From the NCBI RefSeq assembly GCF_019711395.1, contig NZ_JAIGNL010000001.1, positions 434,001 through 498,000 of the forward strand: a DNA stretch of 64,000 nucleotides, given 5' to 3'. This DNA comes from Qipengyuania xiapuensis (GTDB lineage Bacteria; Pseudomonadota; Alphaproteobacteria; Sphingomonadales; Sphingomonadaceae). Below the pieces are notes generated by a model, which saw only the letters and a list, made by a program, of their open reading frames with translations, was not told the DNA's origin and did not search any database. Position numbers and translations under genes: made by a program. Below are positions 28,156-53,039 of this stretch, piece by piece (position 1 is the stretch's first letter; each line of letters starts with the position of its first letter).

Positions 28156-28203
28156 ACATGAAGATTCGTAATCTGGCCGATGATATTGCTGAGGTTGCGT
28201 TGA

Positions 28204-29859: not shown

Positions 29860-32800
29860 CAGTTCTGCCCCCCAACCTCAATGACACACATGCCGACGGT
29901 CACGGGATCCTTGAGCGTGATATCATCCTCTTGCGCCGTGATAGTTTTCAGCTTGTCGTCGAGACGTGCCAGGGTTTTATCGCGGGTTGCTCGCACTGCG
30001 TAGACAAGCTGCTGTCGCTTGGCGCTGCCGGAAAGCTGGTGGTCCCTGATCTGCCGTTCAGCCTTTTCGATTTCACGTTCGCGATGGGCTTCAATGAGCG
30101 CCTTTTGCGTGCCGACCTGGTCGAAATGTTTCGCGGTCTCAGCTTCACGAAACTCTTTTAACTGGCGAGCTAGGTGAGGCATCAAGGTCTCATCTGCTAA
30201 GCGAGCCGCAAGCTGTATTTCGTCCTCTCTAAGCCGCCGAAGCCTTGGTTCGGCGACAATGCTCTCCATGGTGAGCTGCTCGGCGCGCTCATCATTGAGC
30301 AATTCGCCGCTAGCCATATGAAGTGCTGAGAAGACCAATCGGTCAACAGGGTTCAGTCCCTTGATGGCCCAGCTTTGCACGGCGACCAGATATTGGCCGG
30401 GATTGAGATCCTTCGTCTGCTCTCCAGGTGCACTGAAGGCTGTAACAGGCCTCGCCGGCGTTGAGAGCTCTTTCTCTGACATCCGGCTGGCAGCAAAGCG
30501 AGCAAGCGGATGGGTCATTGCTATTGTATCGATGCCGCGATGCGTAAAGCGGTCGGGTGAAGATCCAAAGATCGCCCGGACAACCTTTGAGTTGCTATCA
30601 AAATTGGTCGGAAACTGACTTGAAAACCGTTCTTTGAACCGAGCGAACTCAATGGCGAGCTGGGGCGAGAGGCGGATGTCGTAAAGGTCGAGCTCTTCGT
30701 GATTAGCCCGATCGAAGCGGGTGCCGGGATACTCGTCAATGAGTACGCCGGTAATGTAGTCGAACAGATCCTCAGGTTTGAGCCGTTTGTGCGGCGCTTG
30801 TGCGTCATTAATTTGCTGAAGGATGGAGTCTCCTAGGCCGATGAGACCAGGGGCCTCCTTCTCGAGCTTCTCCTCCTCTTCTCTTCGAGTGGCAGCAGCT
30901 GTTGAAGCACGTTCGAGCTCGCGATCTCGCTCCTCTTTTGTAAGCTTGGGATCGCTTAAGATCTTATCGATCTTGTCGACCATTTCCCCCAGGATGGGCT
31001 CGAAATCGCCCAGAGTCTGCTGAATGAGGTTAAGGCGGAGATAGAGCCGTTCATAGACTTGCTCTTCGATCGTGTTCTTAGCGATCAAGTTCTTAATATC
31101 GATCGCTTCGGCCTTCTGGCCGATACGGTCGATCCGGCCGATCCGCTGTTCGACCTTCATCGGGTTCCAGGGGAGATCCCAATTGACGAGGACGCGGCAG
31201 AACTGAAGGTCCAGGCCCTCACCGCCAACTTCTGATGTCAGAAGAACCGTGCCGCCTGGGGCGTCAGCAAAACGATCGACCGTTTCCTGGCGAGGTGCGG
31301 AGATGCCGCCGTGAAGCTCGATCGAGGCGAAGCCGTCTTCTGTTAGTCGCTTGGCCAGGTAGGATAGGGTCCGCCTGAAGCTTGAAAAGATGATGATTTT
31401 TTCGTCGGGGCTCTCGTTCTGCATTTCGCGCAGCCACCGTTTCAGTTTCTCATATTTGGAGTCGGCCCGTTCGAGCTCCTGCAACTCATCCGGGTCGTCG
31501 CAAATAGCTCCAAGCTCTGTGATCAGCGGGCCGATTTTGCGCATTGCGTCAGCGTCGATGTCCACGTCCTCGTCGAGCGAAAGAGAGCCGCTGCCTTCAC
31601 CCCAGTGGCGGTAGGCTGCAGCGAGGCTCGACGCCAAGAGCCGCTGGGTTTGTGCCAGTAGGAAGCGCGCATTGATGTCATTCCATTCCGCGTATTCCTC
31701 AATCACCTCAGTTGCTCGATCATAGAAGGCGCGCTCTGTGTCCGGAGCCATCTCCCACGAAAGTGTTTTGGGGCGTCTTTGAACCTTGAAGTCAGCGACA
31801 TCCCTTCTTCGAGTGCGATTGACCGTCGTGCCGAGAAGCGACATTTCTTCGATGCGCGCGGCGAGTTTGACGCGATTGCTGTCATCAAAAGCGTCGGTCT
31901 TGGCGAGCTCGGCTTTTAGTCGTTTGAGGCGTCCGCCAGTTTGAAGAACTAGGCCGGGCCTGATCTTGTCAACGAGCGCCCGCACCTGGTCCATGGGGAC
32001 CGAGGGGTTTCGAGCCGCCTCCCACGCGGCGATGATCGGTTCATTCTCGCTGAGTAGCTGAGGGAAGAGAAACTCGTTCCCAAAGGTATCTTCATCAATC
32101 AGGTTGAGCAGCGACCGAAGGTCTTCAGTGTGCAAATTGATGGGAGTAGCGGAGAGAAAGACTTTGTAACTCGCGACATCACTTAGCAGTTCGGCAAGTT
32201 CATGATTTTGAGTCGTGCGATTGCGAAGGTGATGCGCTTCGTCGAATATGACGAGGTCGAAAAGGTCACGGGTGGCGTTGTTCAGGTAGTGGGCAAGCGC
32301 GTCCCTCGAGCCAGGTTTCGGATCGAGCACCTCTTCCCAGCCCTTGTTCGGTTTAAGCCCCGAAAGTGAGGCGACGTAGGCGAAGTTCTTCTTGCCGAAC
32401 TCACCCTCTTTCAGATCGAAAAGGAGCTCTTCAGCATCACACAGCTTCGCCTCGACGTTGAACTTGCTGCGAAGCTCGGCCCGCCACTTTTCACGAAGAG
32501 ATTTTGGGCAAACGACAAGCAGACGGCGAGCGTCTCCGCGTGCGACGAGCTCAGTCCAAATGAGTCCAGCCTCGATGGTTTTACCAAGGCCGACCTCGTC
32601 AGCGACGAGCAAGCCTCTCGAAGGCGAATTCAGGAGTTTGAGGACAGGCTTGTACTGATAGGCATGAAACTCGGTGTTCGTCGCGCCAATGCTGTAGATG
32701 ATGTCTGCGAGGTGCTGACTTGTCATCCGCACGTGGGTGAGAGCTCTGCGCAAAGACTGAGGCGATGAGAGCTTGCCGGCTTTGAGATCTTCAAGCGCAT

Positions 32801-32975
32801 CAGGGGCGGTCACCACCTCTTCGAGCTGGACGACAGATTTGAGCTCGCGCCCGTGGGGGAATTCGATTTCGATAAAAGTGCGACCGTGCGTTTCCACGGC
32901 CTCCGTATCGGTTACCGTACCTATCTCTGCTGGACGGTTGCGCAAGCGAACCCGCGTGCCAGGTGCGAACATCAA
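29859..32975 (-). CDS. SNF2-family ATPase (RapA/HepA-like)
   Basis: 1038 aa. The N-terminal ~50 residues form an SH3-like module ('GTRVRLRNRPAEIGTVTD'). Helicase motifs: I 'VADEVGLGKTIEAGL', II 'VIFDEAHHLRN', III 'FLSATPIN', V 'TSEVGGEGLDLQ' and VI 'QRIGRIDRIGQ'. The C-terminal ~300 residues are helical and Glu/Lys/Arg-rich. It resembles RapA and the DrmD/ZorD type translocases that remodel protein-DNA complexes. It begins 68 bp after the DUF4258 gene, in the same direction. Confidence 0.9.
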   Translation of the reverse strand: MMFAPGTRVRLRNRPAEIGTVTDTEAVETHGRTFIEIEFPHGRELKSVVQLEEVVTAPDALEDLKAGKLSSPQSLRRALTHVRMTSQHLADIIYSIGATNTEFHAYQYKPVLKLLNSPSRGLLVADEVGLGKTIEAGLIWTELVARGDARRLLVVCPKSLREKWRAELRSKFNVEAKLCDAEELLFDLKEGEFGKKNFAYVASLSGLKPNKGWEEVLDPKPGSRDALAHYLNNATRDLFDLVIFDEAHHLRNRTTQNHELAELLSDVASYKVFLSATPINLHTEDLRSLLNLIDEDTFGNEFLFPQLLSENEPIIAAWEAARNPSVPMDQVRALVDKIRPGLVLQTGGRLKRLKAELAKTDAFDDSNRVKLAARIEEMSLLGTTVNRTRRRDVADFKVQRRPKTLSWEMAPDTERAFYDRATEVIEEYAEWNDINARFLLAQTQRLLASSLAAAYRHWGEGSGSLSLDEDVDIDADAMRKIGPLITELGAICDDPDELQELERADSKYEKLKRWLREMQNESPDEKIIIFSSFRRTLSYLAKRLTEDGFASIELHGGISAPRQETVDRFADAPGGTVLLTSEVGGEGLDLQFCRVLVNWDLPWNPMKVEQRIGRIDRIGQKAEAIDIKNLIAKNTIEEQVYERLYLRLNLIQQTLGDFEPILGEMVDKIDKILSDPKLTKEERDRELERASTAAATRREEEEKLEKEAPGLIGLGDSILQQINDAQAPHKRLKPEDLFDYITGVLIDEYPGTRFDRANHEELDLYDIRLSPQLAIEFARFKERFSSQFPTNFDSNSKVVRAIFGSSPDRFTHRGIDTIAMTHPLARFAASRMSEKELSTPARPVTAFSAPGEQTKDLNPGQYLVAVQSWAIKGLNPVDRLVFSALHMASGELLNDERAEQLTMESIVAEPRLRRLREDEIQLAARLADETLMPHLARQLKEFREAETAKHFDQVGTQKALIEAHREREIEKAERQIRDHQLSGSAKRQQLVYAVRATRDKTLARLDDKLKTITAQEDDITLKDPVTVGMCVIEVGGQN

Positions 32976-33399: not shown

Positions 33400-34392
33400 A
33401 TGTCCTTTGCGAAAGCCGTCGATCTTCTACGACTCGCCATGATGGCGACGAACCGCACGGGCGTGTGCCTGATGCAGATCGAAGAAGAATTCGGCTGTGT
33501 AAGGCGCACGGCGCAGCGCATGATTGATGCGCTCGAGATGGCCTTCCCAGCGCTTGAGCACCGCATCGGTACAGACGGGCGGCATTATTGGAGCTTGCGG
33601 GCTGCTGTGACGGCTCAGCTACTCCATGTCAGCGCGGATGAATTGGCGTCGATGAGTTCTGCCATCGCTGAGCTCGAGCGGGTCGGCATGCGTTCAGAAG
33701 CCAAGCGATTGACTGAGCTCAATCACAAAGTGCGTGCGCTCATTCCCTCCGAGCGCAGTGCGCGGCTGGCGACGGATGAAGAGGCGGTGCTTGAGGCGAT
33801 GGGTTATGCAGCACGCCCAGGGCCCAGACCTTCCCTGGATCCTGAGGTCGATGAAGCGATATCCATGGCTCTTAAGGGCCCCTTCCTCCTCAAGATCTCT
33901 TATAAGAGCCGCGGCGATGCCAAGGCGAGTGCGCGGACGATTGAGCCCTACGGGATGCTCCTCGGCGCGCGGCGCTATTTGGTCGCCGTCGATACAGCAA
34001 AACGGGATGGACGCTTTCGGCACTACCGAGTGGAGGACATTTCTAGAGCCGAATTGCTACCTGAAAGCTTCGCCATTCCCGACGATTTCAGCTTGGCTGA
34101 CTATGCGCAGAAGGCCTTCGGCTCGTTTCACAACGACCGCGAATTCGCCGAAGTGGTTTGGAAGTTCGCGCCGCATGCGGCTGACCGAGTAAGCGGTTAT
34201 CAGTTCCATCCCTCGCAAGAGGTCGAAGTGCTCGATGATGGCTCGACGATTGTGCGTTTTAAGGCCTCAGGTCAGCTCGAGATGGCCTGGCATTTATACG
34301 CGTGGGGCGATGCTGTGGAAGTGCTTGAGCCCGAGGCGCTCGCGGACTTGGTGAACCCGCACCGTCGCTCTGATTTTCCGGCTCTGCCGTAA
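33400..34392 (+). CDS. WYL-domain transcriptional regulator
   Basis: 330 aa. An N-terminal winged HTH ('LMQIEEEFGCVRRTAQRMIDAL') precedes a WYL domain ('ISYKSRGDAKASARTIEPYGMLL', 'RRYLVAVD', 'RHYRVEDISRAEL') and a WCX-type C-terminus ('EVVWKFAPHAADRVSGY'). ATG 33400 has AGGAGGGG close upstream. Known for the family: defence regulators BrxR and CapW repress their operons and release on sensing nucleic-acid ligands. Here it is the first rightward gene, next to the 21-bp palindrome, and probably controls both directions. Confidence 0.9.
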   Translation: MSFAKAVDLLRLAMMATNRTGVCLMQIEEEFGCVRRTAQRMIDALEMAFPALEHRIGTDGRHYWSLRAAVTAQLLHVSADELASMSSAIAELERVGMRSEAKRLTELNHKVRALIPSERSARLATDEEAVLEAMGYAARPGPRPSLDPEVDEAISMALKGPFLLKISYKSRGDAKASARTIEPYGMLLGARRYLVAVDTAKRDGRFRHYRVEDISRAELLPESFAIPDDFSLADYAQKAFGSFHNDREFAEVVWKFAPHAADRVSGYQFHPSQEVEVLDDGSTIVRFKASGQLEMAWHLYAWGDAVEVLEPEALADLVNPHRRSDFPALP

Positions 34393-34510: not shown

Positions 34511-37500
34511 GTGAATATCTTTGAGCTCGATAACTCACTGGTCGAGCGCTATGCCTCATTCTCGCGATCGTTCTCGCGAATTCGCTCGCAAGAGATCGCT
34601 GATAAGATCGATGCGGTATACGAGTCCGGGAAATTCTGGCCTGACCCACTGATCACGATCAATCCGCGTTTCGAGAAGGGCGGATCGATCGACCAGCTGG
34701 TCAAAGAAGGCGTGCTCGATCCTGCGCTCGAACAGATCTTTGCGTTCGGTAAGGAGCGCAAACCTATCACGCTCCATCGCCACCAAGAACGTGCAGTTAT
34801 TAAGGCGCGGGCGAAAGAAAGCTTTGTCGTCACGACAGGAACGGGATCGGGCAAGTCGCTGTGTTTCTTCGTCCCAATCATTGATGCGATTGTGCGCGCC
34901 AAACGTGATGGCGAAGCGCCCAAGACGCGGGCTATCATCATCTATCCGATGAACGCGCTTGCGAACTCGCAGCTTGGCGAAATTCAAAAGTTTGCCGAAG
35001 ACGCCGGCATCCCAGAAGAGCTCAAACCGACCGTTGCGCGTTACACCGGGCAAGAAAGCGAGGACGAGCGCAAGGCTATTGCTGAGCAGAAGCCCGACAT
35101 CATCCTTACGAACTTCATGATGCTCGAGCTGCTGATGACGAGGCAGTACAAGCTCGACCAAAAGGTGATCGAGAACTCGATTGGCCTCGATTTCCTCGTG
35201 CTCGACGAGCTTCATACCTATCGTGGCCGCCAAGGCGCCGACGTCGCAATGCTTGTGCGGCGGGTGAAGGAGCGTCTCGCTCCCAAGAAGCATCTGATCT
35301 GCATTGGCACTTCGGCGACGATGTCGAGCTCGCCCGATGAAGTGGAGCGGGCAAAAAGAGTGTCGGAGGTCGCTACCAAGCTCTTCGGTCAGCCCGTTGC
35401 CCATGAGAACGTCATCGATGAGCTTCTCGAGCGTGCCACCTGTCCAGAGATCAAACCTGCGACTTTGGGCGCTAAGCTTGTGCAGGCGATCAAGGAGGAG
35501 TTGCCAAACTCGCTCACCGACGAGGAGCTCTACAACCACCCGCTCGCCTGCTGGGTCGAAACCGAGATTGGGCTCGATGATGGCGAGAAGCTTAGGCGGC
35601 GTAAGCCCATCACGCTCAAAGAGGCCGCCGAGAAGCTCGCAAAGCAAACCGGAGAAGATGAAAAGCGGTGTGAGAGCGTCCTTGCTCAAATGCTTGGCAT
35701 CATGGGAACGCCGGAGAAGGATCGCGGAGGGGATGGCGATCGGGCCTTCCTGGCCTTCAAACTTCATCGGTTCATTTCGGGCGCCGGCCAAGCGTATGTC
35801 ACGCTAGAGAATGCGAAGGACCGCCGCATCGCGCTCGAAGGGCAAAAGTATCATCCCGATGATGAAGAGGCTCGCCTCTATCCCATGTTCTTCTGCCGCG
35901 AGTGCGGGCAGGAGGTTCTCTCGGTCACCTATGGGCATGACGAAGATGGCGCCATGCGCATGCTTGCGAGACCTATCGATGAACCTGCGAGTGACGAACC
36001 CGATGCAGGGGGTGATGAAAGCGGTTATCTCGTTCCAGCGGTCAATGACGACTTTGATTTTGCTGGAAACCCGGAAGACTATCCGGAAGGCTGGCAGGAG
36101 ACGACAGCGTCAGGTGAGATCCGCCTCACGTCTTCGCATCGCGGGAAGCATGAGGGGCAGCATCTTTATCTAAAGCTCGATGGCTCAATATGCGGCGAGC
36201 ATGATGGCGGAACCCCGGCCTGGTTCTTTCGCGGTCCCTATCGTTTCTGCCCACACTGCGGTCATCAGCCGGCGAGCCAGGCGCGCGAGCGCAATAAGCT
36301 GGCCGGACTTTCGGCAGAGGGGCGTAGCTCGGCCACCACTCTGATCGTCGCGTCGGTTCTGTCGTGGATGGATCAGGACGCAAGTCTGCGCAAATATTCG
36401 CGCAAGCTGCTGGGCTTTACCGACAACCGACAGGATGCGGCGCTCCAGGCCGGTCACTTTAATGACTTCATCTTCGTCTCGCTCTTACGCGGTGCAATCT
36501 ACCGCGCCGTGGCGGAAGCTGGAGAATCTGGTCTGAAGCCTAGCCAGTTCGGCGACGCTGTTCGTCGGGCCCTAGGCTTTGATTTGGAGCTAGAGGATCG
36601 GCTCCCGGACTGGATGCGCGATCCCAAGGTGAAAGGATATGGCAAGCGTCAAGGCGCTCAAGAGACGTTGGCAGAGGTCCTGGCCCATCGTCTTTGGGCA
36701 GACCTTCGCAAGGGTTGGCGCTTCACCAATCCGAACTTGGAAGATGTGGGCCTTGTTGATGCTCGCTTTATGGGCCTTAGCGATCTTGCAAAGGACGAAG
36801 AGGAATATGCTGATTGTCCTCGTCTCGCGGAGCTAACCCCGGAGAAGCGCGAGCAGCTTTTTGAAATACTGTTCGACGCAATGCGCCAGTCGCTGGCTGT
36901 ATCTACGCCAGCTCTTGATCGCGAGCGCATCAGGCAAATGGCTGAGGAAAGCGATGGCCGCCTGAAATTGCCGTGGGCGATCGACCCAGAAGAGATCAGA
37001 GGTCTTCGCGAAAGCGGGATGCTGATGATCGAAGTGCCGAAGCGCGCGCGAATTTCTGCTGCCGATTCCGAACTTATCCTGCGAGCCGGCGATCGCTCGA
37101 ACCTTGCCAAGGCCATTCGGGATAAATCCATCTGGGGCGAGAAATTGGGGCGTGATGACTATGAAGAAGTCATCAAGGGGCTCCTCTCTGCCGCAGAGTC
37201 GCACGAAATTGTGCGACGGGTACAGTCCGGCTTTGAGCTCCCAGCCTGGCGCCTCGCACCAACCAATTTACGCCTCTTCGCCAAGACTAATGAGACGGAG
37301 AACGACAAGCACAATCAGTTCTTCCGTACGCTTTACCAGGGTGTCGCCGCGACGCTTGCGCAGGATGGCCCGCTGCAAAACGCGTTTGAGGGGCGTGAGC
37401 ATACGGCTCAGGTCGATAGCGATGTAAGAGAATGGCGCGAGCAGCGCTTCCGCTTTGAAGAGAAGGATCAGAGCGCCCTAGCAGAAGAGAAGGATAAGCT

Positions 37501-39712
37501 CTTCGAGGCGGGCGAGCCGAGTGATTTTCTACCGGCGATGTTTTGCTCGCCGACTATGGAGCTCGGCGTTGATATTAGCGCGCTCAACGTCGTCTATATG
37601 CGCAACGTGCCTCCCACCCCGGCCAATTATGCGCAGCGATCGGGACGCGCGGGGCGGAGCGGTCACCCCGCTCTTGTTGTCACATATTGCGCTGCTCAGT
37701 CTCCGCATGATCAGTACTATTTTGCGGACACAGCCGCTCTTGTTTCGGGCGTGGTGCGGCCGCCGGCGCTCGACCTCGCCAACCAGGATCTCCTGACCTC
37801 GCATCTGCAAGCCGAATGGCTCGCTTCGGTGGAAGAGGGGCTCGAGGCTTCGATCCGAGAGAACCTCGACATGGACAAGGAGGGGATGCCATTGAAGGCC
37901 CCCATCCGCGCCGCCGCTGAAGAAGCGAGTAACTCCAGGCGAGCTCGTCCGGTGATGAGGCGGCTCATCGATGCAATGTTGGGCGATATCGAGCCTAGCG
38001 ATGCGCCTTGGCTGGACGACGTGGATGCCTTCGTTGACCAGGTGAATGACTTGGCGCTCGAGAACTTTGAGGGCAGCTTCGACCGGTGGCGCAATCTATA
38101 CGAGAGCGCGCGTGAAGAGCAGGATAGAGCGCACGCGATCCAACAGAAGACCGGTCTCCAACCGGGCGAGCGGCGCGCAGCAAAGAACCGCTATGTCAAT
38201 GCGACCAAGGAGCTAGAGGTCCTTGAGCGCGGCCATTCCAAATATGGGTCTGACTTCTACGTCTATCGCTATTTGGCGACTGAGGGCTTCTTGCCAGGCT
38301 ATAATTTCCCGCGCCTTCCGCTCTACGCCTTCGTCCCAGCCGATAAGACTTCAGTGCTTCAGCGTCCGCGCTTTCTGGCGATTGCCGAGTTTGGTCCCAA
38401 TGCCCTCATCTATCATGAGGGACGCGCCTACCGGGTCACTAAGGCTAAGCTACCGGCTGAGAGCCGCGGCGATGATGGCAAGCTTTCGACAAACACTCTC
38501 ATTCTGTGCGGCGAATGCGGGGCAGGACATAAGGATCCTCTGCAAGAGCGCTGCCATGCCTGCAAGTCCTCGCTGGCAGGAGTGGAAAGGATCGACACGG
38601 TCTTTCGTATCGACAATGTCGAGACCTCTCCCTCGCTGCGCATCACGGCCAATGATGAGGACCGCCAACGTCGCGGATTTGAGATCCTAACGATTTTCCA
38701 GTGGCCCACTAAAGATGGAGTGCCACAGATCCGCGGCAGGACTATCGGACAAGGTGGAAATTCCTTGCTCCATCTCGACTATGGTCCGGCGACGACGCTT
38801 TCCCGGCTCAACAAGGGTCTGCGGCGCCGCAAGAGTAAGTCGATCTTGGGCTTCTTCATCGATCCGCAAACCGGGCGGTGGATCAAGGACCCCTCGAGCG
38901 GAGACAGCGACGAGGGGATGGGTGATCCTGGAAACGCGCCGCCGCAGCGGATCGTGCCGATCGTGGAGGACCACAAGAACGCTATGCTGCTGCGGCCCGT
39001 CCGCAACTTCAGGCCTGAACAAATGGCAACGCTCCAGCATGCTCTTCTGCGCGGCATACAAACCGAGTTTGAACTGGAGGAAGGCGAGCTCCTCGGTGAG
39101 CCTCTCCCGACGCGCGTGGATCGCAATTGCATGTTGCTTTATGAGGCAACGGAAGGCGGGGCCGGTGTCCTCAATCGGCTGGTTTCCGATCCCACTGCGA
39201 TCGCCAGCGCTGCGGCACGCGCTCTAAAGCTCATGCATTATCTCGAGCCCTTTGGAGACAAGGAGCCTGAAGAGCATGAAGAGAGCTGCGTTGCCGGCTG
39301 CTACCGCTGCCTTCTTTCTTATTACAATCAGCCGGATCACGAACTTATCGACCGGCGTGACGCTGAGGTTGTCGAATATTTGATTGCGCTTAGCCAGTCC
39401 GTTGACGTTGCAAGCGGGCATCAGAAGGCAAACGGCAGCCAAGGCAGTTCGAAGCCTGACAATTCGGACCACTCCGGCTGGCATGCAGCCTTCGAGCGGT
39501 GGGATGTCCAAGAACCGAAGTCGCTCGATATCGGGGGCGACGTTATCAACTTCTACTGGCCGGCACGCGATGTCCTTGCGGTCATAGGTGAAGCAACAGA
39601 AGCGACGAAGCAGCTCGCATCTGCGCGCGGCATCTTGGATCTCGTCGAGCTTCCGGCCGAACCGGGCGAAGAGCCTCCGGCTAGCCTCAAAACAGCATTG
39701 GGAATCTTATAA
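34511..39712 (+). CDS. Giant DEAD/DEAH helicase fused to DUF1998 (DruE/MrfA-like, DrmA-DrmB-like fusion)
   Basis: About 1733 aa. GTG 34511 (VNIFELDN) has GGGGGC upstream; TTG 34496 is possible. Helicase motifs: Walker A 'TTGTGSGKSLCFF' (~residue 115), motif II 'LVLDELHTYRG' (~235), III 'IGTSATM' and VI 'YAQRSGRAGRSG' (~1045). Zinc-ribbon cysteines occur at 'CRECGQE', 'CPHCGHQ' and 'CGECGAGHKD..CHACKSS'. The C-terminal DUF1998 has 'EATEGGAGVLNRL' and 'CVAGCYRCLLSYYNQ'. DruE of Druantia has this layout; in DISARM the helicase (DrmA) and DUF1998 (DrmB) are separate. It overlaps the next gene by one base. Confidence 0.85.
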   Translation: MNIFELDNSLVERYASFSRSFSRIRSQEIADKIDAVYESGKFWPDPLITINPRFEKGGSIDQLVKEGVLDPALEQIFAFGKERKPITLHRHQERAVIKARAKESFVVTTGTGSGKSLCFFVPIIDAIVRAKRDGEAPKTRAIIIYPMNALANSQLGEIQKFAEDAGIPEELKPTVARYTGQESEDERKAIAEQKPDIILTNFMMLELLMTRQYKLDQKVIENSIGLDFLVLDELHTYRGRQGADVAMLVRRVKERLAPKKHLICIGTSATMSSSPDEVERAKRVSEVATKLFGQPVAHENVIDELLERATCPEIKPATLGAKLVQAIKEELPNSLTDEELYNHPLACWVETEIGLDDGEKLRRRKPITLKEAAEKLAKQTGEDEKRCESVLAQMLGIMGTPEKDRGGDGDRAFLAFKLHRFISGAGQAYVTLENAKDRRIALEGQKYHPDDEEARLYPMFFCRECGQEVLSVTYGHDEDGAMRMLARPIDEPASDEPDAGGDESGYLVPAVNDDFDFAGNPEDYPEGWQETTASGEIRLTSSHRGKHEGQHLYLKLDGSICGEHDGGTPAWFFRGPYRFCPHCGHQPASQARERNKLAGLSAEGRSSATTLIVASVLSWMDQDASLRKYSRKLLGFTDNRQDAALQAGHFNDFIFVSLLRGAIYRAVAEAGESGLKPSQFGDAVRRALGFDLELEDRLPDWMRDPKVKGYGKRQGAQETLAEVLAHRLWADLRKGWRFTNPNLEDVGLVDARFMGLSDLAKDEEEYADCPRLAELTPEKREQLFEILFDAMRQSLAVSTPALDRERIRQMAEESDGRLKLPWAIDPEEIRGLRESGMLMIEVPKRARISAADSELILRAGDRSNLAKAIRDKSIWGEKLGRDDYEEVIKGLLSAAESHEIVRRVQSGFELPAWRLAPTNLRLFAKTNETENDKHNQFFRTLYQGVAATLAQDGPLQNAFEGREHTAQVDSDVREWREQRFRFEEKDQSALAEEKDKLFEAGEPSDFLPAMFCSPTMELGVDISALNVVYMRNVPPTPANYAQRSGRAGRSGHPALVVTYCAAQSPHDQYYFADTAALVSGVVRPPALDLANQDLLTSHLQAEWLASVEEGLEASIRENLDMDKEGMPLKAPIRAAAEEASNSRRARPVMRRLIDAMLGDIEPSDAPWLDDVDAFVDQVNDLALENFEGSFDRWRNLYESAREEQDRAHAIQQKTGLQPGERRAAKNRYVNATKELEVLERGHSKYGSDFYVYRYLATEGFLPGYNFPRLPLYAFVPADKTSVLQRPRFLAIAEFGPNALIYHEGRAYRVTKAKLPAESRGDDGKLSTNTLILCGECGAGHKDPLQERCHACKSSLAGVERIDTVFRIDNVETSPSLRITANDEDRQRRGFEILTIFQWPTKDGVPQIRGRTIGQGGNSLLHLDYGPATTLSRLNKGLRRRKSKSILGFFIDPQTGRWIKDPSSGDSDEGMGDPGNAPPQRIVPIVEDHKNAMLLRPVRNFRPEQMATLQHALLRGIQTEFELEEGELLGEPLPTRVDRNCMLLYEATEGGAGVLNRLVSDPTAIASAAARALKLMHYLEPFGDKEPEEHEESCVAGCYRCLLSYYNQPDHELIDRRDAEVVEYLIALSQSVDVASGHQKANGSQGSSKPDNSDHSGWHAAFERWDVQEPKSLDIGGDVINFYWPARDVLAVIGEATEATKQLASARGILDLVELPAEPGEEPPASLKTALGIL

Positions 39713-42501
39713 TGGACGCTGTGCGATTTAGCCCTGGCGATTTGGTCAATGCCCGCGGCCGCGAGTGGGTAGTTTTGCCATCGCAAGAGGGTCTCCTGCG
39801 GGTCCGCCCTTTGTCTGGCTCAGATGAGGATGCGCAAACGCTCATCCCCTCGCTCGAAAGGCGACCCGTAAAGCCTGCGCGTTTCGCTCCGCCGTCGGCG
39901 GATCAGCTCGATACGCAGGCCGGTGCGCAGCTCTTGGCTGATGCACTGCGGCTCTCTCTCAGGCGCGGCGCTGGTCCCTTTCGTAGCGCTGCGCATCTAG
40001 GGGTCGAGCCGAGAGCCTATCAGCTCGTCCCTCTGATGATGGCTTTGAAGCTGTCTCCTGCAAGGCTGCTCATCGCCGACGATGTCGGTATCGGCAAGAC
40101 AATCGAGGCGGGCATTGTCCTGCGCGAGTGGCTTGATCGCGGGACGGTCGATCGGTTCGCTGTCCTATGTCCTCCGCACTTGGTTGATCAGTGGATTAGC
40201 GAGCTTTCTGAAAAGTTCGATATTGATGCGGTTGCCGTAACGTCATCGCGGGCGCGCCGCTTGGAGCGCGGGCTTCCGGCCTCCCAAAGCCTATTTGAGG
40301 CCTATCCTTTCACCGTTGTGAGCCTGGACTACATCAAGGCGGACAGCCGCCGCGATGACTTTGCACGTGCGTGCCCTGACTTCGTGATTGTCGACGAGGC
40401 GCATACTTGCGTCGGGAGCGAAGGCGGTACCCATCAGCGATACGAACTGCTGAAGAGCCTGGCGAGCGATACGGAACGCCATATGCTGTTTTTGACGGCA
40501 ACGCCCCACAGCGGCGACGTTGATGCCTACCAGCGACTGCTGGGGCTTATTGAACCCGATCTAGCCAATCCTCCGCCTCAAGGAGCCGATGAGGCGCGGC
40601 GCACGCAGTATTCCCGCAAACTTGCGCAGCATTTCGTGCAGCGGCGACGGCCAGACATTCAAGAGGGTTGGGGCGAGGATAAAGCTTTCAAGCCGCACCT
40701 CACGAAGTCGGTGCCCTATGAGCTGGTGGGAGACTATCAAGCTCTGCAGGAGGACGTGCTCGATTACTGCCTCGAAGTGACCAATCGCTCGGGCAGCGAC
40801 AAACGTTCACGAAGGCTAGCCTTTTGGAGCACGCTGGCGCTGATGCGCTGTGTAGGCTCGTCCCCCGCAGCTGCTGCGAGCGCCCTCAACAACCGTCTCT
40901 CCGGCCTGGTTGAAGCTGAAGAAGTCGAACCCATCGTGTTTGAGATGGACGATGGCACGCTCGATGACAGCGACGTTGAACCCGCCACCGCCATGGCCGA
41001 TGCGGAAGAGTACGCCGCGCTCAAGAGTCTTATCGACCGCGCCAACGCACTCGATGATGCGAAGGGTGAGGGTGATCCTAAGGTTAAAACGCTAGTCGAT
41101 GAACTCGCCCCGCTCCTAAAGGCGGGCGCAAACCCCGTTATCTTCTGCCGCTTCATCGCTACGGCCGAGGCTCTAGGAGACATCCTCCGGGAGAAATGGC
41201 CCAAGATCCATACAGAGGTCGTTACAGGTCGCCTGACGCCAGAAGAGCGCCGTGATCGGGTTGAAGATATGGGGTCGAGTGATCGGCGCTTGCTCGTCGC
41301 GACTGACTGTCTTTCTGAAGGGATCAACCTTCAAGAGCATTTCGATACCGTCGTTCACTACGATTTGAGCTGGAACCCGACGCGGCACCAGCAGCGCGAA
41401 GGCCGTGTCGACCGCTTTGGGCAGCAGGCGGAGCAGGTGCGGTCTATTATGCTGCATGGCTCGAACAGCGCAATCGACGGCGCCGTGCTCAAGGTCATTA
41501 TTCGCAAGGCCGAAGAGATCCAAAGGGCGACGGGGGTCAGCGTGCCGATGCCTGAAGATCAGGACAGCATCACCTCCGCTCTCATGCAAGCCATGCTTAT
41601 GCGCAAAGGGTCTGAGCATTCGCAGCTCGTGCTCGATTTTGGTGCCTCGGCTGGGAAGTTTGAAGCCACCTGGCGCGATGCCGCTGAAGGCGCAAAGGCC
41701 AGCCGCGCACGGTACGCGCAAAATGCCATGAAGCCCGATGAGGTCATTCCGGAATGGAAGAAGATGCGCGCCCTCAATGGTGGCCCGTTGGAGGTCGAGC
41801 GCTTCACTAAGCGCGCGCTGCAGCGTTTAGGAACTGGTCTTGAAGCGGTTTCAGGGCATTATCTCGTCCACTATGACGAGCTGCCCGAAAGCATAGGTGA
41901 AAAGCTCCAGGCCCGGAACCTCAAGGGCACGAAGCGTATCTCCTTCGTGGATGATCCTGCGCAGAACGTGGCTCATGTCGGCCGCGTTCACCCCCTGGTT
42001 TCGCACCTCGCCGAGACGCTGAGTGAAGGCGCGCTCGATCCGACCTCTTCGGAAACCAAGCCATTGGGAAGAGGCGGAGTATGGCGCACCTCGGCAGTCC
42101 AAGAGGTGACGACACTCCTCGTCATGCGGATGCGCTTTCAGCTCATAACGAGTGGAAGGACCAGCCGGATGCTTCTCGCAGAAGAAGCACTCGGAATGGC
42201 GTTCGGGCCTGATGCCACTGTCGCCATAGCGGAGGGGCCTGAGGCGCTGACCTTGCTTGAGAGCGAGGCAAGCGGCGACTTGACTGAGGAAGCGCGGCGC
42301 CGACATTTGGAGCGGGCTCTGGAAAGAGTTGGCGACTACACCGCCGAGATCGAGAGATTGGCAAACGAGCGATCAGATCAGCTTTCTGAAGACCACGTCA
42401 AACTGACGCGCGCAGCTGGTGGCGGTGCGACAGTGGAAGTCAGTGCAGTCATGCCGCCGGACATTATTGGCCTCTACGTACTTCTGCCGGAGGCAAACTG
42501 A
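39712..42501 (+). CDS. SNF2-family ATPase, DrmD-like
   Basis: 929 aa. Motif I 'IADDVGIGKTIEAGIVL' (~119-135), II 'IVDEAHTCVG' (~225), III 'FLTATPHSGD', V 'ATDCLSEGINLQ' and VI 'QQREGRVDRFGQQ'. The N-terminus has an SH3-like strand set ('PGDLVNARGREWVVLP'). It resembles DrmD of class 1 DISARM, which is also encoded next to DrmMI. Start and stop codons overlap its neighbours by one base (TAATG, TGATG), so it is translated with the helicase and the methylase. It is distinct from the SNF2 gene at 29859-32975: motif wording and length differ clearly. Confidence 0.88.
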   Translation: MDAVRFSPGDLVNARGREWVVLPSQEGLLRVRPLSGSDEDAQTLIPSLERRPVKPARFAPPSADQLDTQAGAQLLADALRLSLRRGAGPFRSAAHLGVEPRAYQLVPLMMALKLSPARLLIADDVGIGKTIEAGIVLREWLDRGTVDRFAVLCPPHLVDQWISELSEKFDIDAVAVTSSRARRLERGLPASQSLFEAYPFTVVSLDYIKADSRRDDFARACPDFVIVDEAHTCVGSEGGTHQRYELLKSLASDTERHMLFLTATPHSGDVDAYQRLLGLIEPDLANPPPQGADEARRTQYSRKLAQHFVQRRRPDIQEGWGEDKAFKPHLTKSVPYELVGDYQALQEDVLDYCLEVTNRSGSDKRSRRLAFWSTLALMRCVGSSPAAAASALNNRLSGLVEAEEVEPIVFEMDDGTLDDSDVEPATAMADAEEYAALKSLIDRANALDDAKGEGDPKVKTLVDELAPLLKAGANPVIFCRFIATAEALGDILREKWPKIHTEVVTGRLTPEERRDRVEDMGSSDRRLLVATDCLSEGINLQEHFDTVVHYDLSWNPTRHQQREGRVDRFGQQAEQVRSIMLHGSNSAIDGAVLKVIIRKAEEIQRATGVSVPMPEDQDSITSALMQAMLMRKGSEHSQLVLDFGASAGKFEATWRDAAEGAKASRARYAQNAMKPDEVIPEWKKMRALNGGPLEVERFTKRALQRLGTGLEAVSGHYLVHYDELPESIGEKLQARNLKGTKRISFVDDPAQNVAHVGRVHPLVSHLAETLSEGALDPTSSETKPLGRGGVWRTSAVQEVTTLLVMRMRFQLITSGRTSRMLLAEEALGMAFGPDATVAIAEGPEALTLLESEASGDLTEEARRRHLERALERVGDYTAEIERLANERSDQLSEDHVKLTRAAGGGATVEVSAVMPPDIIGLYVLLPEAN

Positions 42502-45500
42502 TGGCTAGGTCACAAAAACGCCTCGCAGACATTGGCTTTTCCGCCATCACAATCGAGGGCGGTCTGATATCGCCTGACCAGGTCGTTAAAGTGGCAAGTA
42601 CGACGCCCGATCAAAAGACGGCTGCGGAGTACAATTGTCCGAAGGGGGTTTCCCTTCGCGATGAGATGACGCGGTACTTTCAGATTGGCAAAGCGCATTG
42701 GAAGACTTTTGCCTCTATTGATCACCCTACTCAGCAGCAAACTGAGGAATTCGTCGAGCAACTGCTTACAAGCGCCTTTGGGTTTGAGCTGAAGAAGGCC
42801 GGCCCAAGAACGCGCGGCGACAGAAGGTTTGCGGTCGCATTCGAGGGTTCAGAGGGGCGTGTCCCCGTTGTCGTTACCGCGCCGCTCGGTCCGGATGAAG
42901 ACGGGAAAAATAAGGACGCGTTCACCGTCGGCCGCACGCAGTTTGGTGACGGAGCCAATGGCCGAATTGCTAAGCGTTCGGCGGCTTTGCTCCTTCAGGA
43001 TTGGCTGAACGCCAATGCTGACTTCTATTGGGGCTTGGTGTTTGCGGGTGATCGCGTTCGTCTGATGCGGGACAATGCCAGCTTTACGAGGCCAGCATAC
43101 ATCGAAGCGGACCTTGGAGCGATCTTCCGCGACGACATGTTTGCAGAGTTCACCGCCTGGTGGCTGCTGACGCACGCTTCGCGTTTCGGCAAAGCAGGCG
43201 CACCTCCTAGCGAAGGTCCGCTCGAGTATTGGCGCGAAGCGGGCATGGAGGCGGGTACCGCCGCGCGGGACAAACTGCGCGGGAACGTTGAGAGCGCCCT
43301 CCTCGCTATCGGCAAGGGGCTGCTGGGGCATAATCCGGAGCTCCGCCGCAAGATCGATGACAATGAATTGTCGATGCAGTCGCTCTTCGAGCAGATGCTG
43401 CGGACAGTTTATCGATTGATTTTTCTGGCGGTCGCCGAAGATCGCGATCTCTTGCATTCGCCGGGAACTGCTCGAGCGACGAAGCAACTTTATCAGGAGA
43501 ACTACGGCTTCGCCTATTTGCGCACTCGCTCTGCAAGACGCGGATCGCGCGATACGCATGGGGACGCGTGGGAAGGTCTGAAGATTGTCTTCAACGCTCT
43601 CGCGCAAGGGGAAAAAGAACTAGGACTGCCTGCATTGGGCGGCCTCTTCTCCGCAAATGCCACGCCGGATTTCGAGAAGTGCGCAATACCTAACCGATAC
43701 CTGCTGGAAGCCATCTTCAATCTTGGATGGATGATGGAAGAGGGACGCCGTGTCCGCATCAATTGGCGCGACATGGCAACGGAAGAATTCGGGAGCGTCT
43801 ACGAGGGATTGCTTGAACTTACGCCGACGCGAACCGAAGAGGGGCGTTCTTTTGACTTTGTTGAAGACCTGAAAGGCAACGAGCGGAAGACGACGGGAAG
43901 CTACTACACTCCGGACAGCCTTGTGCAGACCTTGCTCGATAGCGCCCTCAACCCGGTTCTCGAAAAGGCTGAAGCAGAGGACCGCGAAGCAGGTATACTT
44001 GATCTCAAGATCATCGATCCGGCCTGCGGATCGGGGCACTTCCTGCTGGGTGCTGCGCGTAGAATGGCAACACGCGTGGCGCAGCTGCGGGATCCTGACG
44101 CACCCGACTACAACCGAGCGTTAAGAGAAGTGGTCGCTCGCTGCATCCATGGGGTCGACCGCAACCCGATGGCAGTGGAACTCGCCAAGGTTGCGCTGTG
44201 GATCGAGAGTGTTTCCCCGGGGCAACCGCTGGGCTTCCTAGACGCCAATATCCGCTGCGGCGATGCGCTGCTGGGCGTTTTCGACCTGACCGTACTTGAA
44301 ATGGGCATCCCCGATGATGCCTACAAACCACTGATCGGGGACGACAAGCGGGCAGCCGCTTTTTACAAGAAAAAGAACAAGTTCGAGAAAAGCGGACAGG
44401 GCAGTTTCGACTTCGACGCCGGAACAGGAGCTTTGCCTCCAAAGAAGTTGGCGGCAGACCTCACCGTCATCCGCCGTATGAAGGAAGATACCGTCCGGGA
44501 TGTACAGAAAAAACGCGAGGCATTCGAGGCTTGGAAGAACGATCCCGAGCGCCTCGCCACACGCATTGCTTGCGATTTGTACTCTGCAGCGTTTCTTCTT
44601 CCTAAGCTTGAGGCGCGGGATGATGAGGATAGGAATGCCGTACCTACCACTGCAGACCTTTGGAAAAGGCTCGGTGGGGGGCAGATCGACGACACCCTTG
44701 AAGCCGCAGCCGTACAAGCTTCGGAAAAAGCCCGTGCATTCCATTGGCCGCTGGCTTTTCCTGATGTTTTGATCACCAAAGGTGGCTTTGATGTAGTACT
44801 AGGCAATCCTCCATGGGAAGTCGTGCAGCTAAACGAGGTAGAGTTTTTCGCGGGTCCGAGGCCGGACATCGCCGAACTCACCGGTAACGCTCGAAAAGTT
44901 GCGATTAGTGGTCTGCGTCAAAGTGACCCAACACTCTCAACCGCATTCGAATTTGCGAAGCGGACGATTCAAAGCAGCGCTGATTTCGCTCGATCATCGG
45001 GCCGTTTTGATAAGGCTGCCAGGGGAAAAATAAACACTTACGCGCTGTTTTTGGAGCTTTTCAATAATTCACGTTCAGATAGTGGATACGCTGGAGTTAT
45101 AGTCCCGGCAGATTACTCTACTGGCGAATCTACAAAGTTGTTATTTCAAGAATTGATCGAAACGGGGGCGTTGATAGATTCTATAGGATTCGAGAACGAA
45201 GAGTTTATCTTCCCTGGGATTGCCAATGTCGTCCGTTTCGCATTAGTCACTCTCGGCCCCAACGATCCTCTACACGACCCTGCATTTCGCTTTTATTTGA
45301 GGACTATGTCTGATCTCTCTGAGGAAGAACGTGTCGTCCGGCTCGGCGTGAAAGATATTGCAGAATTCAATCCGAATACAAAGACGTCTCCGGTATTCCG
45401 GACTAAATATGATGCGGGGCTTACAAAGAGAATATATCAGAGGCTCCCAGTTCTTGAAGAGGAATCAAGGAGTAACAATGAGTGGGGCCTAGGTTTTCGT

Positions 45501-46454
45501 CAAGGCCTTTTCAACATGACTTCTGATAGCAAAAAATTTATGAAGTCAGACAAGTTAATGGATCGAGGCCTTGAGCTTAAAGGTCAGATCTTTACTGGAG
45601 GCGATGAGATTTACTTTCCTCTACTTGAAGGAAAGTTTATTTGGCACTTCGATCATCGTTCAAGTTCTTATCATAACGTCGGCAAAGCAAAAGGAAGAGG
45701 TGGTCGCGGCCTTCCTCTGATATTGCTGGAGGAGTATCAGAACGCTGATTTCGAGGTCCAACCAAGGTATTGGGTTAATAAGGAAGAGGTGGATGAGAAA
45801 CTCGAGAAGGTAGATTGGGATCGAGATTGGTTCATTTCATGGCGGGCGACGACGAGTAGCAAGCTTGAGCGCACTTTAGCGGCTACAGTCGTGCCGAGAT
45901 ACGCTTGTGGAGATACACTGTTACTGGCGTTCCCAAATCAGTCGTCAAGGCTTTGCGCTGCTTTGCTGGCAAATCTCTGCTCGCTCGTATGCGACTATAC
46001 TGTACGGCAGAAGATGGGTGGAACGTCGCTTAAACAGCATTATTTCAAGCAATTTGCTTGTCTGCCACCAAGTGCCTACAGCGAGTTCGACCTCGGTTTC
46101 ATAGTCCCGCGGGTGCTGGAGCTCAGCTACACCTCGCATTCCATGGCCCCCTTCGCGCGCGACCTGGGGTATGAGGGCGAGCCGTTCCGCTGGGACGAGG
46201 ACCGCCGCGCGCACCTGCGGGCCGAGCTCGACGCCTGGTATGCGCTCGCCTACGGTCTCTCCCGCGACGAGCTACGCTACGTCCTCGACCCAAAGGACGT
46301 GATGGGCGAAGACTACCCCAGCGAGACCTTCCGCGTCCTCAAGAACAACGAAATCAAAGAACACGGCGAATACCGCACCCAACGCCTCGTCCTCGCCGCC
46401 TACGACAAGCTGGTAGCCGAAGGCATGCGACCTCGGACGGAGGGCTATCGTTGA
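42501..46454 (+). CDS. N6-adenine DNA methyltransferase, DrmMI/PglX/Eco57I-like
   Basis: 1317 aa. SAM motif I 'IIDPACGSGHFLLGA' (~505-519) is preceded by 'GSYYTPDSLVQTLL', and catalytic motif IV 'LGNPPWEV' is at ~767. N-terminal ~400 residues form a helical domain of the PglX/DrmMI type. After motif IV comes a target-recognition-like region. Its DNA is clearly poorer in GC up to ~46080, after which the C-terminal ~120 residues are strikingly GC-rich ('RDLGYEGEPFRWDEDRRA'). No nuclease motif was seen, so it is probably the host-marking subunit of the system. It overlaps the DUF932 gene by four bases. Confidence 0.9.
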   Translation: MARSQKRLADIGFSAITIEGGLISPDQVVKVASTTPDQKTAAEYNCPKGVSLRDEMTRYFQIGKAHWKTFASIDHPTQQQTEEFVEQLLTSAFGFELKKAGPRTRGDRRFAVAFEGSEGRVPVVVTAPLGPDEDGKNKDAFTVGRTQFGDGANGRIAKRSAALLLQDWLNANADFYWGLVFAGDRVRLMRDNASFTRPAYIEADLGAIFRDDMFAEFTAWWLLTHASRFGKAGAPPSEGPLEYWREAGMEAGTAARDKLRGNVESALLAIGKGLLGHNPELRRKIDDNELSMQSLFEQMLRTVYRLIFLAVAEDRDLLHSPGTARATKQLYQENYGFAYLRTRSARRGSRDTHGDAWEGLKIVFNALAQGEKELGLPALGGLFSANATPDFEKCAIPNRYLLEAIFNLGWMMEEGRRVRINWRDMATEEFGSVYEGLLELTPTRTEEGRSFDFVEDLKGNERKTTGSYYTPDSLVQTLLDSALNPVLEKAEAEDREAGILDLKIIDPACGSGHFLLGAARRMATRVAQLRDPDAPDYNRALREVVARCIHGVDRNPMAVELAKVALWIESVSPGQPLGFLDANIRCGDALLGVFDLTVLEMGIPDDAYKPLIGDDKRAAAFYKKKNKFEKSGQGSFDFDAGTGALPPKKLAADLTVIRRMKEDTVRDVQKKREAFEAWKNDPERLATRIACDLYSAAFLLPKLEARDDEDRNAVPTTADLWKRLGGGQIDDTLEAAAVQASEKARAFHWPLAFPDVLITKGGFDVVLGNPPWEVVQLNEVEFFAGPRPDIAELTGNARKVAISGLRQSDPTLSTAFEFAKRTIQSSADFARSSGRFDKAARGKINTYALFLELFNNSRSDSGYAGVIVPADYSTGESTKLLFQELIETGALIDSIGFENEEFIFPGIANVVRFALVTLGPNDPLHDPAFRFYLRTMSDLSEEERVVRLGVKDIAEFNPNTKTSPVFRTKYDAGLTKRIYQRLPVLEEESRSNNEWGLGFRQGLFNMTSDSKKFMKSDKLMDRGLELKGQIFTGGDEIYFPLLEGKFIWHFDHRSSSYHNVGKAKGRGGRGLPLILLEEYQNADFEVQPRYWVNKEEVDEKLEKVDWDRDWFISWRATTSSKLERTLAATVVPRYACGDTLLLAFPNQSSRLCAALLANLCSLVCDYTVRQKMGGTSLKQHYFKQFACLPPSAYSEFDLGFIVPRVLELSYTSHSMAPFARDLGYEGEPFRWDEDRRAHLRAELDAWYALAYGLSRDELRYVLDPKDVMGEDYPSETFRVLKNNEIKEHGEYRTQRLVLAAYDKLVAEGMRPRTEGYR

Positions 46455-47437
46455 ACGAGATCGCTCTTATTGAGCCGGAAAAGGGTCGGGGACTGTCACG
46501 ATGGCAGAGCAAGCCGATCGAAATCAGTCGGGGCGATTGGCAAGATCTCCGATCGCTTCTGCCAAAGTTCTCAATCGAGGACTTCGTCGCTCCTGGCCAC
46601 CTCGAGCCTAACCCTTACCATTGCTCGATCGTTCGCAAGCCGCTCACCGAGAACGAGCAGCCAGTCCCGGTTGCAATCGTTGGTCAGAATTACGGTCTAG
46701 TGCAGCATAGCCAAGCTGGTGACGCGGTTGTCGCGGCCATGAAGAAGCTCGGGATCTGGTTCGAGCACATGGATTGCTGGCTCGAGCTAACCGAACTTGG
46801 TGAGTGGATGCATGTCCGATTCACGCTTGATGACAGCTACGCAATCACGCCGACAGATGGGTACCCCGTTCATTTCTGCATTGACCTTTACAATTCGGTC
46901 GACGGAAAGAGCCGCCTCTTACTTCAGACGAGCTGGCTCCGTTTGGTTTGCAACAACGGCTTGATTCTGAGCAGTGCAAGCGGGATTGGGCTTGTCGATG
47001 TGCACGACCGCTTCGTGAAACTTGGTCCGATCGACGACGTCCTAGGGGCTGCGCTTCGAGAAGCGGAGAAAGACGCGCAAATCTTAGAGGAGTGGTGGGC
47101 CAACCAGCTTTGCGCGGATCTCGACGCATGGGCAGACGGCCCGCTACAAATGCTCTGGGGCAAGTTCAATGCCGCCCGGGTACTTGGCATTTGCCGCAGC
47201 GGAATGGATGGCACACCAGAGAGGTTCAACCGCTCGCCGCCGAGCCAACTGGAGCTTGATGAGCGAGAAAAGGTGCCCGGATCTCCTGAACAGGCGAAAA
47301 CCCTTTATGACGTCGCTCAAGCGCTATCCTGGGTGGCGGGGCAAATCGGAGATGTCACGAAACGAGATAAATTTCGTGCGGATATTCCAAAGCTAATCGA
47401 AGGCCTTAAGCGCGAAGGGCATCGCGGTGTTTCTTGA
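46451..47437 (+). CDS. DUF932 phage/plasmid-like protein
   Basis: 328 aa with the DUF932 signature: 'VPVAIVGQNYGLVQHSQ', 'GYPVHFCIDLYNSVDGKS', 'SWLRLVCNNGLIL' and C-terminal helices. DUF932 genes are frequent on mobile elements and beside defence loci; the biochemical role is not known. A TTG start inside the methylase stop (overlap of four) gives the best-placed start, implying translational coupling. Confidence 0.8.
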   Translation: MNEIALIEPEKGRGLSRWQSKPIEISRGDWQDLRSLLPKFSIEDFVAPGHLEPNPYHCSIVRKPLTENEQPVPVAIVGQNYGLVQHSQAGDAVVAAMKKLGIWFEHMDCWLELTELGEWMHVRFTLDDSYAITPTDGYPVHFCIDLYNSVDGKSRLLLQTSWLRLVCNNGLILSSASGIGLVDVHDRFVKLGPIDDVLGAALREAEKDAQILEEWWANQLCADLDAWADGPLQMLWGKFNAARVLGICRSGMDGTPERFNRSPPSQLELDEREKVPGSPEQAKTLYDVAQALSWVAGQIGDVTKRDKFRADIPKLIEGLKREGHRGVS

Positions 47438-48212
47438 TCAACCGGCACGGCTGGACGACTATCCGTACGCGCTCATCTCCGAGCTGAAGGAGTGTGCAAA
47501 CGAGCACGGCTATCGCATCGGGCCAGATCAGGCGAAGGGATGGCTGTTCTTTCGGTCTGCGAGCGCGCCAGGGGAAATTGGACTAGCTGCGACGGCGGCT
47601 GGGATGTCAGGTCCGTTCTATCTTTCCGTCTTCCACCCGGGCGCCGCGCGTGAACTCAAGGGCCCTCAAGCGGCCGAGAAAGCAAAGGGATCGACGAAGG
47701 CCTTCATCTTCGACAGTCGCGCCGCTTTGAGAGAGGCTGTGGCTGAGGTTTACCGGCTGAGCATTTCACTGCCGACTTTGCCTCTAGAGTGCTACCTTCG
47801 CGATATCGAAGGTCTGGGCGATACAGAGGCTGAGCGTGCTCAGAAGGTGCGCATCGGACAGGACAGATTCCGCGAAGCACAGCTCAATTATTGGAATAGC
47901 TGCTGCCCACTTACAGGGATTACTGAACCTGAGTTGCTGCGCGCGTCTCACATAATCCCTTGGGCGAAATGCGACAGCGATTTCGAGCGTTTGTACGTGC
48001 GCAATGGCTTCCTACTTTCGAGCCTGTGGGATGCGGCTTTCGACAGCGGGCTTGTGACCTTCGATGACGGCGGATTAGCTATTGCGTCACCAGCGCTGAG
48101 CTCATCTGCGCGTGAAGCCTTAGGGCTTCATCGTGAGCACCGGCTAACCCTGCATGATGAGCATCGTGCAAGATTAGCCTGGCACCGCGAGAACCTTTTC
48201 CAAGCTGATTAG
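47427..48212 (+). CDS. HNH endonuclease
   Basis: 261 aa. The C-terminal ~100 residues have an HNH signature: 'CPLTGI', 'LLRASHIIPWAKCDSD' (catalytic His) and 'NGFLLSSLWDAAFDSGL' (Asn and distal His region). The N-terminal half is an uncharacterised domain ('FFRSASAPGEIGLAATAAG'). A GTG start overlaps the DUF932 stop by 11 bases. This makes it the sixth and last gene of the rightward operon, and the one clear nuclease in it. Confidence 0.85.
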   Translation: MFLDQPARLDDYPYALISELKECANEHGYRIGPDQAKGWLFFRSASAPGEIGLAATAAGMSGPFYLSVFHPGAARELKGPQAAEKAKGSTKAFIFDSRAALREAVAEVYRLSISLPTLPLECYLRDIEGLGDTEAERAQKVRIGQDRFREAQLNYWNSCCPLTGITEPELLRASHIIPWAKCDSDFERLYVRNGFLLSSLWDAAFDSGLVTFDDGGLAIASPALSSSAREALGLHREHRLTLHDEHRARLAWHRENLFQAD

Positions 48213-52292: not shown

Positions 52293-53039
52293 ATGGCGGT
52301 TCCGCTAATATTGGTGGGTGTCTCTGCGCTTATCTTTATCTGTTTTGGCGAGATCATTATCGAATGGATTGTCAGGGTTTGTATCACCCTTCTGCTAGCG
52401 GGCAGTTTAGGTTTTCTCGGCCCGCAGATTGTGGGCCTCGATGGTTCGAAAGCCTCCCTACTTTTCCTCGTTGTCGCGCTGGGGAGCTATCTCCCGATTT
52501 TTAGGATGGTTTCTCGGTTTCGGGAGGGTAACTCTACATGCAAAGCATCGAGGTCAGCAGCGTGTACTGCTGATGGAGGCTCTGATCGCAAGGCTGCTGT
52601 CATACGTTCGGCTGACATTGACGCGGTAATCGATGATGATGCACCGGATGATTGGAAGCGCGCTTTTGCAATTTTGCCCGGCGCTGATTTTTCTGATGCT
52701 CAGGCGGCTTGTGCTGCTCTGCTTCAATTGGCCGAGGTCCCCTCAACCCTCAACCCTGAGCTAATTGAGAGAGCAGTGTTTATCCGCCGTCACTTGCCCG
52801 GTCTCTTATCGGATGCGAAACAGTTTTTGGCTGTGGTCGACGATCCTGACGAAAAGCACGCGATCCTACGCAACCTCGAAATTGATCTTATGGCGATGGG
52901 TAAAATGGCCCAAGCCGCATTAGACGCCAACCAATTGAACAAGCGAAGCGCTTGGGAAGTGCGGCACCTCCACGTCTCGTCGCGGCTTGATGATTTAACT
53001 TACGTAACCCGAGAGAATAATGGATGCGGTGCCCCTTGA
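52293..53039 (+). CDS. Membrane-anchored hypothetical protein
   Basis: 248 aa. Three hydrophobic segments in the first ~75 residues ('LILVGVSALIFICFGEIII', 'CITLLLAGSLGFLGPQI', 'ASLLFLVVALGSYLPIF') are followed by an acidic helical cytoplasmic domain. ATG 52293 has a GGAGG upstream. The stop lies inside the next gene (overlap 20), so they are co-translated. No family recognised; its link to a nuclease suggests a membrane sensor or anchor. Confidence 0.6.
   Translation: MAVPLILVGVSALIFICFGEIIIEWIVRVCITLLLAGSLGFLGPQIVGLDGSKASLLFLVVALGSYLPIFRMVSRFREGNSTCKASRSAACTADGGSDRKAAVIRSADIDAVIDDDAPDDWKRAFAILPGADFSDAQAACAALLQLAEVPSTLNPELIERAVFIRRHLPGLLSDAKQFLAVVDDPDEKHAILRNLEIDLMAMGKMAQAALDANQLNKRSAWEVRHLHVSSRLDDLTYVTRENNGCGAP

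Follow-up and report, generated by a model that had tools for sequence, protein, structure and literature searches.

ARMADA is presented in the main text of Bell et al. (2025, PMC12458937) as a link between DISARM and Druantia. In the gene order given there for type I, YprA is followed by a BrxHII-like and a PglX-like protein, and the YprA helicases of this type are described as ending in a Vsr nuclease that is "predicted active", a feature of the typical architecture that lies outside the definition by which the type is named. Phage protection is demonstrated in that text for ARMADA type II only. In this study, we analysed a stretch of 64,000 nucleotides from Qipengyuania xiapuensis, referred to here as the window, for which an initial annotation had proposed a new combination of DISARM and Druantia parts. 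That combination has already been published as ARMADA type I. The system itself is known, and what the present analysis adds is the state in which a separate HNH gene is found in place of an intact Vsr domain.

Organization of the operon

The operon and the gene immediately upstream of it comprise the following features, all located on the plus strand.

33400..34392, + strand: WYL/WCX-domain transcription regulator (Pfam WYL 3.8e-08, WCX 5.4e-13)
34511..39712, + strand: YprA-family (ArmC/DruE-like) DEAD helicase with fused MZB/DUF1998 (Pfam DEAD 8e-26, Helicase_C, MZB 8e-09; tree)
39464..39709, + strand: degenerate Vsr-like (PD-(D/E)xK) C-terminal domain of the helicase (alignments, structure model)
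39712..42501, + strand: BrxHII/DrmD/RapA-like SNF2 helicase (Pfam SNF2-rel_dom, Helicase_C; GIGKT and DEAH motifs)
42501..46454, + strand: PglX/DrmMI-like adenine DNA methylase (Pfam Eco57I 3e-17; PADLOC DrmMI 234 bits)
46451..47437, + strand: DUF932 protein, between methylase and HNH (Pfam DUF932 2e-06)
47427..48212, + strand: HNH_2 nuclease with a VcaM4I-like catalytic domain and a separate N-terminal domain, candidate effector (Pfam HNH_2 1.3e-10)

ORF calls and Pfam matches confirmed the three large genes that had been placed at 34511-46454, namely a fused DUF1998 helicase, an SNF2 protein and an adenine methylase (Pfam Eco57I/N6_Mtase at 42501-46454), which are joined by single-base overlaps (34496/34511-39712, 39712-42501 and 42501-46454). 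The operon had been drawn too short, however, as the DUF932 gene (46451-47437) and the HNH gene (47427-48212) overlap downstream on the strand of the core genes, giving five co-directional genes that extend past the methylase to 48212. A motif check of the core genes found both the ATPase Walker A/B motifs and the methylase motifs intact; the YprA-family helicase carries the Walker A motif TGTGSGKS (34835-34858) and DELH (35204-35215), and the methylase carries DPACGSG (44016-44036) and NPPW (44805-44816). Translation of the helicase probably begins at GTG 34511, which is the start conserved among its homologues (consensus MNVFxLD) and fits better than TTG 34496. The WYL/WCX gene (33400-34392) is a probable regulator of the operon, and neighbour comparison showed a WYL gene directly upstream of the operon in a Croceicoccus locus (L031) as well. 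When the operon was scanned for promoters and terminators, sites were no more numerous than in shuffled sequence.

Identity of the system

The operon is almost certainly a member of ARMADA type I, because its gene set and order equal the definition given in the main text of PMC12458937. Pfam places the DEAD, Helicase_C and MZB domains in one protein, as a helicase fused to DUF1998/MZB; the ORFs and family matches give the order YprA, BrxHII-like, PglX-like; and ArmD (RelE-GajB), the marker of type II, is absent, the operon closing with the DUF932 and HNH genes. The C-terminal Vsr, predicted active, that is typical of type I is not found in the window helicase, in which alignments show that the active-site residues E, D, D and H and the catalytic loop have been lost. 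A defined subtype with the same gene set was what the initial annotation had itself held to tell against a new system, and ARMADA type I, by gene set and order, is such a subtype.

Homologues were collected by tblastn (68 plasmid records at E<=1e-50) and by a profile scan of species genomes (80 loci). Nearly all of about 100 loci with flanking DNA, from many phyla, have the three core genes in the order of the window, and for this reason the arrangement cannot be attributed to chance. In a tree of the kind that the initial annotation had suggested, the window helicase falls among about 100 loci, most of them YprA-first, and away from DruE and E. coli ARMADA II; the tree leaves out the type I reference WP_108720193.1 and has long branches that meet at the outgroup. 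The closest relative of the window helicase in the tree is that of a Sphingobium locus (L043; 67-70% identity), in a well-supported proteobacterial group. Two loci with a reversed core order (L123 and L124) were considered as type II and rejected, there being no ArmD-sized helicase downstream.

One form of the hybrid reading begun by the initial annotation is that the operon is a true and recent hybrid, produced by recombination between DISARM and Druantia. The likenesses on which the initial annotation was based are real, in that PADLOC and NCBIfam profiles liken the fused helicase to Druantia and the SNF2 protein and methylase to DISARM class 1, the DruE, DrmD and DrmMI models all being matched. 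However, the scores lie far under what true DruE and DrmD proteins give. With the PADLOC DruE models, the window helicase reaches 290 bits, in pieces (Deinococcus ARMADA I, 297; E. coli ARMADA II, 348), whereas the true DruE of E. coli ATCC 8739 reaches 2179 bits over its full length; the SNF2 protein scores 289 bits with NCBIfam DrmD, under the cut-off of 610. In addition, the three genes are found as a set in about 100 loci from different phyla, where they have diverged jointly, and their combination is described in the main text of PMC12458937. Recent recombination is thus extremely improbable, and was rejected in favour of a conserved three-gene module. The SNF2 protein also gave a strong DpdE match to a single PADLOC model (PDLC02853), which matches an Agrobacterium ARMADA homologue as well. 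For detection tools, it is of consequence that PADLOC 2.0.0 scatters the proteins of the operon over DruE, DpdE and DrmMI models.

Loss of the Vsr active site and features of the HNH protein

The structure model of the Vsr remnant in the window has a pLDDT mostly >90 and the element order H-E-E-E-H-E-H, and it aligns with I-Bth0305I at a VIA-align Z of 6.5; Foldseek with the same model returned no significant match. The model predicts that the window helicase has retained the Vsr-like core fold. Across loci, the E, D, D and H residues are retained in 33-35 of the 35 that are free of HNH and are scattered or deleted in those that carry it.

The HNH protein of the window is related to VcaM4I, an EVE-HNH restriction enzyme (phmmer 2.6e-15; profile 2.9e-39), and its model (pLDDT 95.7) aligns with the VcaM4I structure (PDB 6yex) at a VIA-align Z of 15.8 over 137 residues. 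The two HNH catalytic domains are 27% identical and share their catalytic residues, which are H175, N193, D202 and D206 in the window protein and, respectively, H224, N241, D250 and D254 in VcaM4I (PMC7897488). Unlike VcaM4I, the window protein is devoid of an EVE domain and has a different small N-terminal domain, for which structure comparison gave no clear relative. It is plausible, by analogy, that the operon encodes a licensed, auto-inhibited HNH nuclease, because the HNH domain of VcaM4I becomes non-specifically toxic when released from its linker helix (PMC7897488). An HNH protein is not named as a component of ARMADA type I in the main text of PMC12458937, where the sole mention is in the title of a reference; the supplement may differ.

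The four catalytic residues are invariant in 45/45 HNH sequences, and since they are, this conservation points to selection for catalysis. It argues against the notion that neither the Vsr remnant nor the HNH protein cuts, their roles being in DNA binding, structure or regulation, and that host nucleases destroy the phage DNA after it has been unwound. The predicted fold of the remnant would agree with that notion, as it may retain a structural or DNA-binding role, but we consider it quite improbable that neither protein cuts.

The initial annotation had also suggested that an HNH protein might replace DrmC. DrmC is indeed absent, profile searches having found no phospholipase-D match among the accessory proteins of the operon, and HNH is a conserved companion of the core genes in this branch. 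What it seems to replace, however, is the decayed Vsr and not DrmC.

Vsr and HNH across loci

A degenerate Vsr together with HNH was scored in 45 loci (window included), an intact Vsr without HNH in 35, an intact Vsr with HNH in 3 and a degenerate Vsr without HNH in 3, the absence of HNH being scored partly on incomplete genomes and short downstream DNA. Strict exclusion between Vsr and HNH was rejected once the loci had been extended, as three betaproteobacterial loci carry both. In the degenerate-Vsr loci without HNH, the methylase gene is followed by McrBC (L121), an EVE-McrB-like gene (L041) or IS21 (L033). Another locus, outside those scored for HNH (L122), has a degenerate Vsr and McrBC right after the methylase, and McrBC also adjoins some Vsr-intact loci (L040, L119). 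A raw Fisher test of the association gave p 4e-17, a value that treats relatives as independent and is not reliable. On a 108-row tree, 3 changes of HNH and 5 of Vsr were counted, and with so few independent changes the tree-aware independent-pairs test has no power.

In an ML tree of 55 helicases, constructed with the C-terminal domain left out, the rows with HNH fall into a single clade (SH-aLRT 95), placed within lineages that have an intact Vsr and no HNH. In this clade, one large group has lost Vsr, further losses are seen in L039, L074 and L069, and L065, L068 and L071 keep both Vsr and HNH. This topology suggests that HNH was gained once and first, and that the redundant Vsr decayed afterwards. 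On comparative anatomy, the most economical reading is that the nuclease role passed from the fused Vsr to the separate HNH protein, and we lean towards it.

The slot between the methylase and HNH genes

In 21 loci, the slot between the methylase and HNH genes holds a gene for an SMC-like protein that is about 660 aa long and weakly similar to LmuB, for example at L043:17287-19266 in Sphingobium; the gene is also present in Caballeronia (L153), there without HNH. Other genes found before HNH encode GmrSD/HNH, second HNH, HD-domain, HEPN-RES and Schlafen/AlbA-like proteins (L056, L066, L050, L131, L143), and several loci have no slot gene, HNH overlapping the methylase gene directly. DUF932 was found in none of the other ARMADA loci examined, nor did it have a match in a plasmid or a same-class genome; as a conserved ARMADA component it was rejected, being present in the window only.

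The variable content of this slot would be expected if HNH, often together with the SMC/LmuB-like gene, were an autonomous restriction or Lamassu-like module riding in the operon, with the ARMADA I of this branch being nuclease-free and acting by a BREX-like replication block, its Vsr dispensable and decayed. The weak match of the SMC-like protein to LmuB models and the stand-alone nature of the related restriction enzyme VcaM4I agree with this, as do two gene pairs that occur on plasmids without ARMADA: SMC with HNH in Paracoccus versutus (L171), and HNH by a TIR gene in Rhizobium (L172). Yet HNH has been kept through wide YprA divergence and tracks it, HNH and YprA distances being correlated (Mantel r 0.867, 0/5000 permutations), and the direct overlap with the methylase gene in loci without a slot gene is not what a riding module would lead one to expect. 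Furthermore, in the genome samples, HNH hardly occurs outside ARMADA or its remnant: the full-length family occurs in 4/385 same-class genomes, three times with ARMADA and once beside a BrxHII remnant, and in 0/320 other genomes, of a second class. An autonomous module is in our opinion unlikely, and transfer of the nuclease role from Vsr to HNH remains the preferred reading. The Paracoccus versutus pair (L171:11993-14747), which has no ARMADA core nearby, is possibly a stand-alone two-gene system.

Defence island around the operon

The operon is part of a defence island, in which the G+C content falls from ~0.64 to ~0.55; at the edge of this low-G+C region lies a tRNA-Leu(cag) gene (7128-7214), followed by a tyrosine integrase gene (7309-8571). 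A second att copy, searched for in the genome as the last 17 bases of the tRNA-Leu gene with <=1 mismatch, was not found. Directly upstream of the operon lies another on the minus strand (25934-32975), possibly an undescribed system. It encodes a DrmD-like SNF2 helicase, which matches PADLOC PDLC02623 over the full length at 744 bits, a 551-aa protein that matched no family, a DUF2779 protein and a nuclease of the EEP family; DrmA and DrmB are absent from it. The plus-strand region 11915-24261 carries an Mrr-like PDC-S02 gene, a gene for a 1449-aa protein without a Pfam or PADLOC match, and one for a 1706-aa protein in which a DpdF-like DEAD helicase is fused to a GajB-like UvrD helicase. Beyond the operon lie a defence-like REase-ARP pair (52293-53877), a Mokosh-like RNase H/helicase (55624-59004) and, on the minus strand, McrBC (60014-63993).

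Proposed mechanism and significance

In the mechanism that we propose, the PglX-like enzyme would mark host DNA, and the YprA and BrxHII-like motors would load on unmarked invading DNA and unwind it or translocate along it. The HNH protein, inactive alone, would be licensed by the complex to cut DNA, taking the job that the fused Vsr would have elsewhere in ARMADA I. The DUF932 protein may be an accessory, encoded at the place where other loci often have an SMC/LmuB-like gene. Taken as a whole, membership of ARMADA type I, combined with an operon of the HNH branch in which the nuclease function was handed over from Vsr to HNH, is the best explanation of the locus and a likely one. Whether the branch also amounts to a distinct, HNH-dependent subtype of ARMADA I is evenly balanced in our view; such a subtype would imply that: a VcaM4I-like HNH joined once; it coexisted with Vsr; Vsr then decayed repeatedly; and the effector nuclease can be exchanged, with Vsr acting in cis and HNH, or perhaps McrBC, in trans.

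The existence of natural loci with Vsr only, with both nucleases and with HNH only bears on which component destroys phage DNA in ARMADA, and in BREX- and DISARM-like systems generally, and makes this question accessible to a direct test by point mutants. The branch would also show clearly how one nuclease can take the place of another on a single helicase-methylase chassis.

Comparison with known systems

The operon shares with Druantia a DUF1998-fused YprA helicase of the DruE kind, but differs from it in the fragmented DruE match (290 bits in pieces against 2179), and no other Dru model was matched among the operon proteins. A DrmD-like SNF2 protein and a PglX/DrmMI-like protein are common to the operon and to DISARM class 1; in contrast to the latter, the helicase and DUF1998 are fused and not divided into DrmA and DrmB, DrmC is lacking, and the DrmD match is under the curated cut-off. 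The 7-deazaguanine biosynthesis and insertion genes of Dpd/BRIGADE were found neither among the operon proteins nor among the scanned neighbouring proteins.

ARMADA type II of E. coli ATCC 8739 (L154) has the same three protein kinds as the window operon, but its core genes run BrxHII-PglX-YprA, a UvrD-type ArmD comes after them, and its helicase is distant in trees from that of the window. The location of the window operon in a defence island by a tRNA gene and an integrase corresponds to the insertion mode given in the main text of PMC12458937 for E. coli type II. With ARMADA type I, the operon shares the helicase-first core order; it differs from the typical members in that its fused Vsr is degenerate and that DUF932 and HNH genes follow the methylase.
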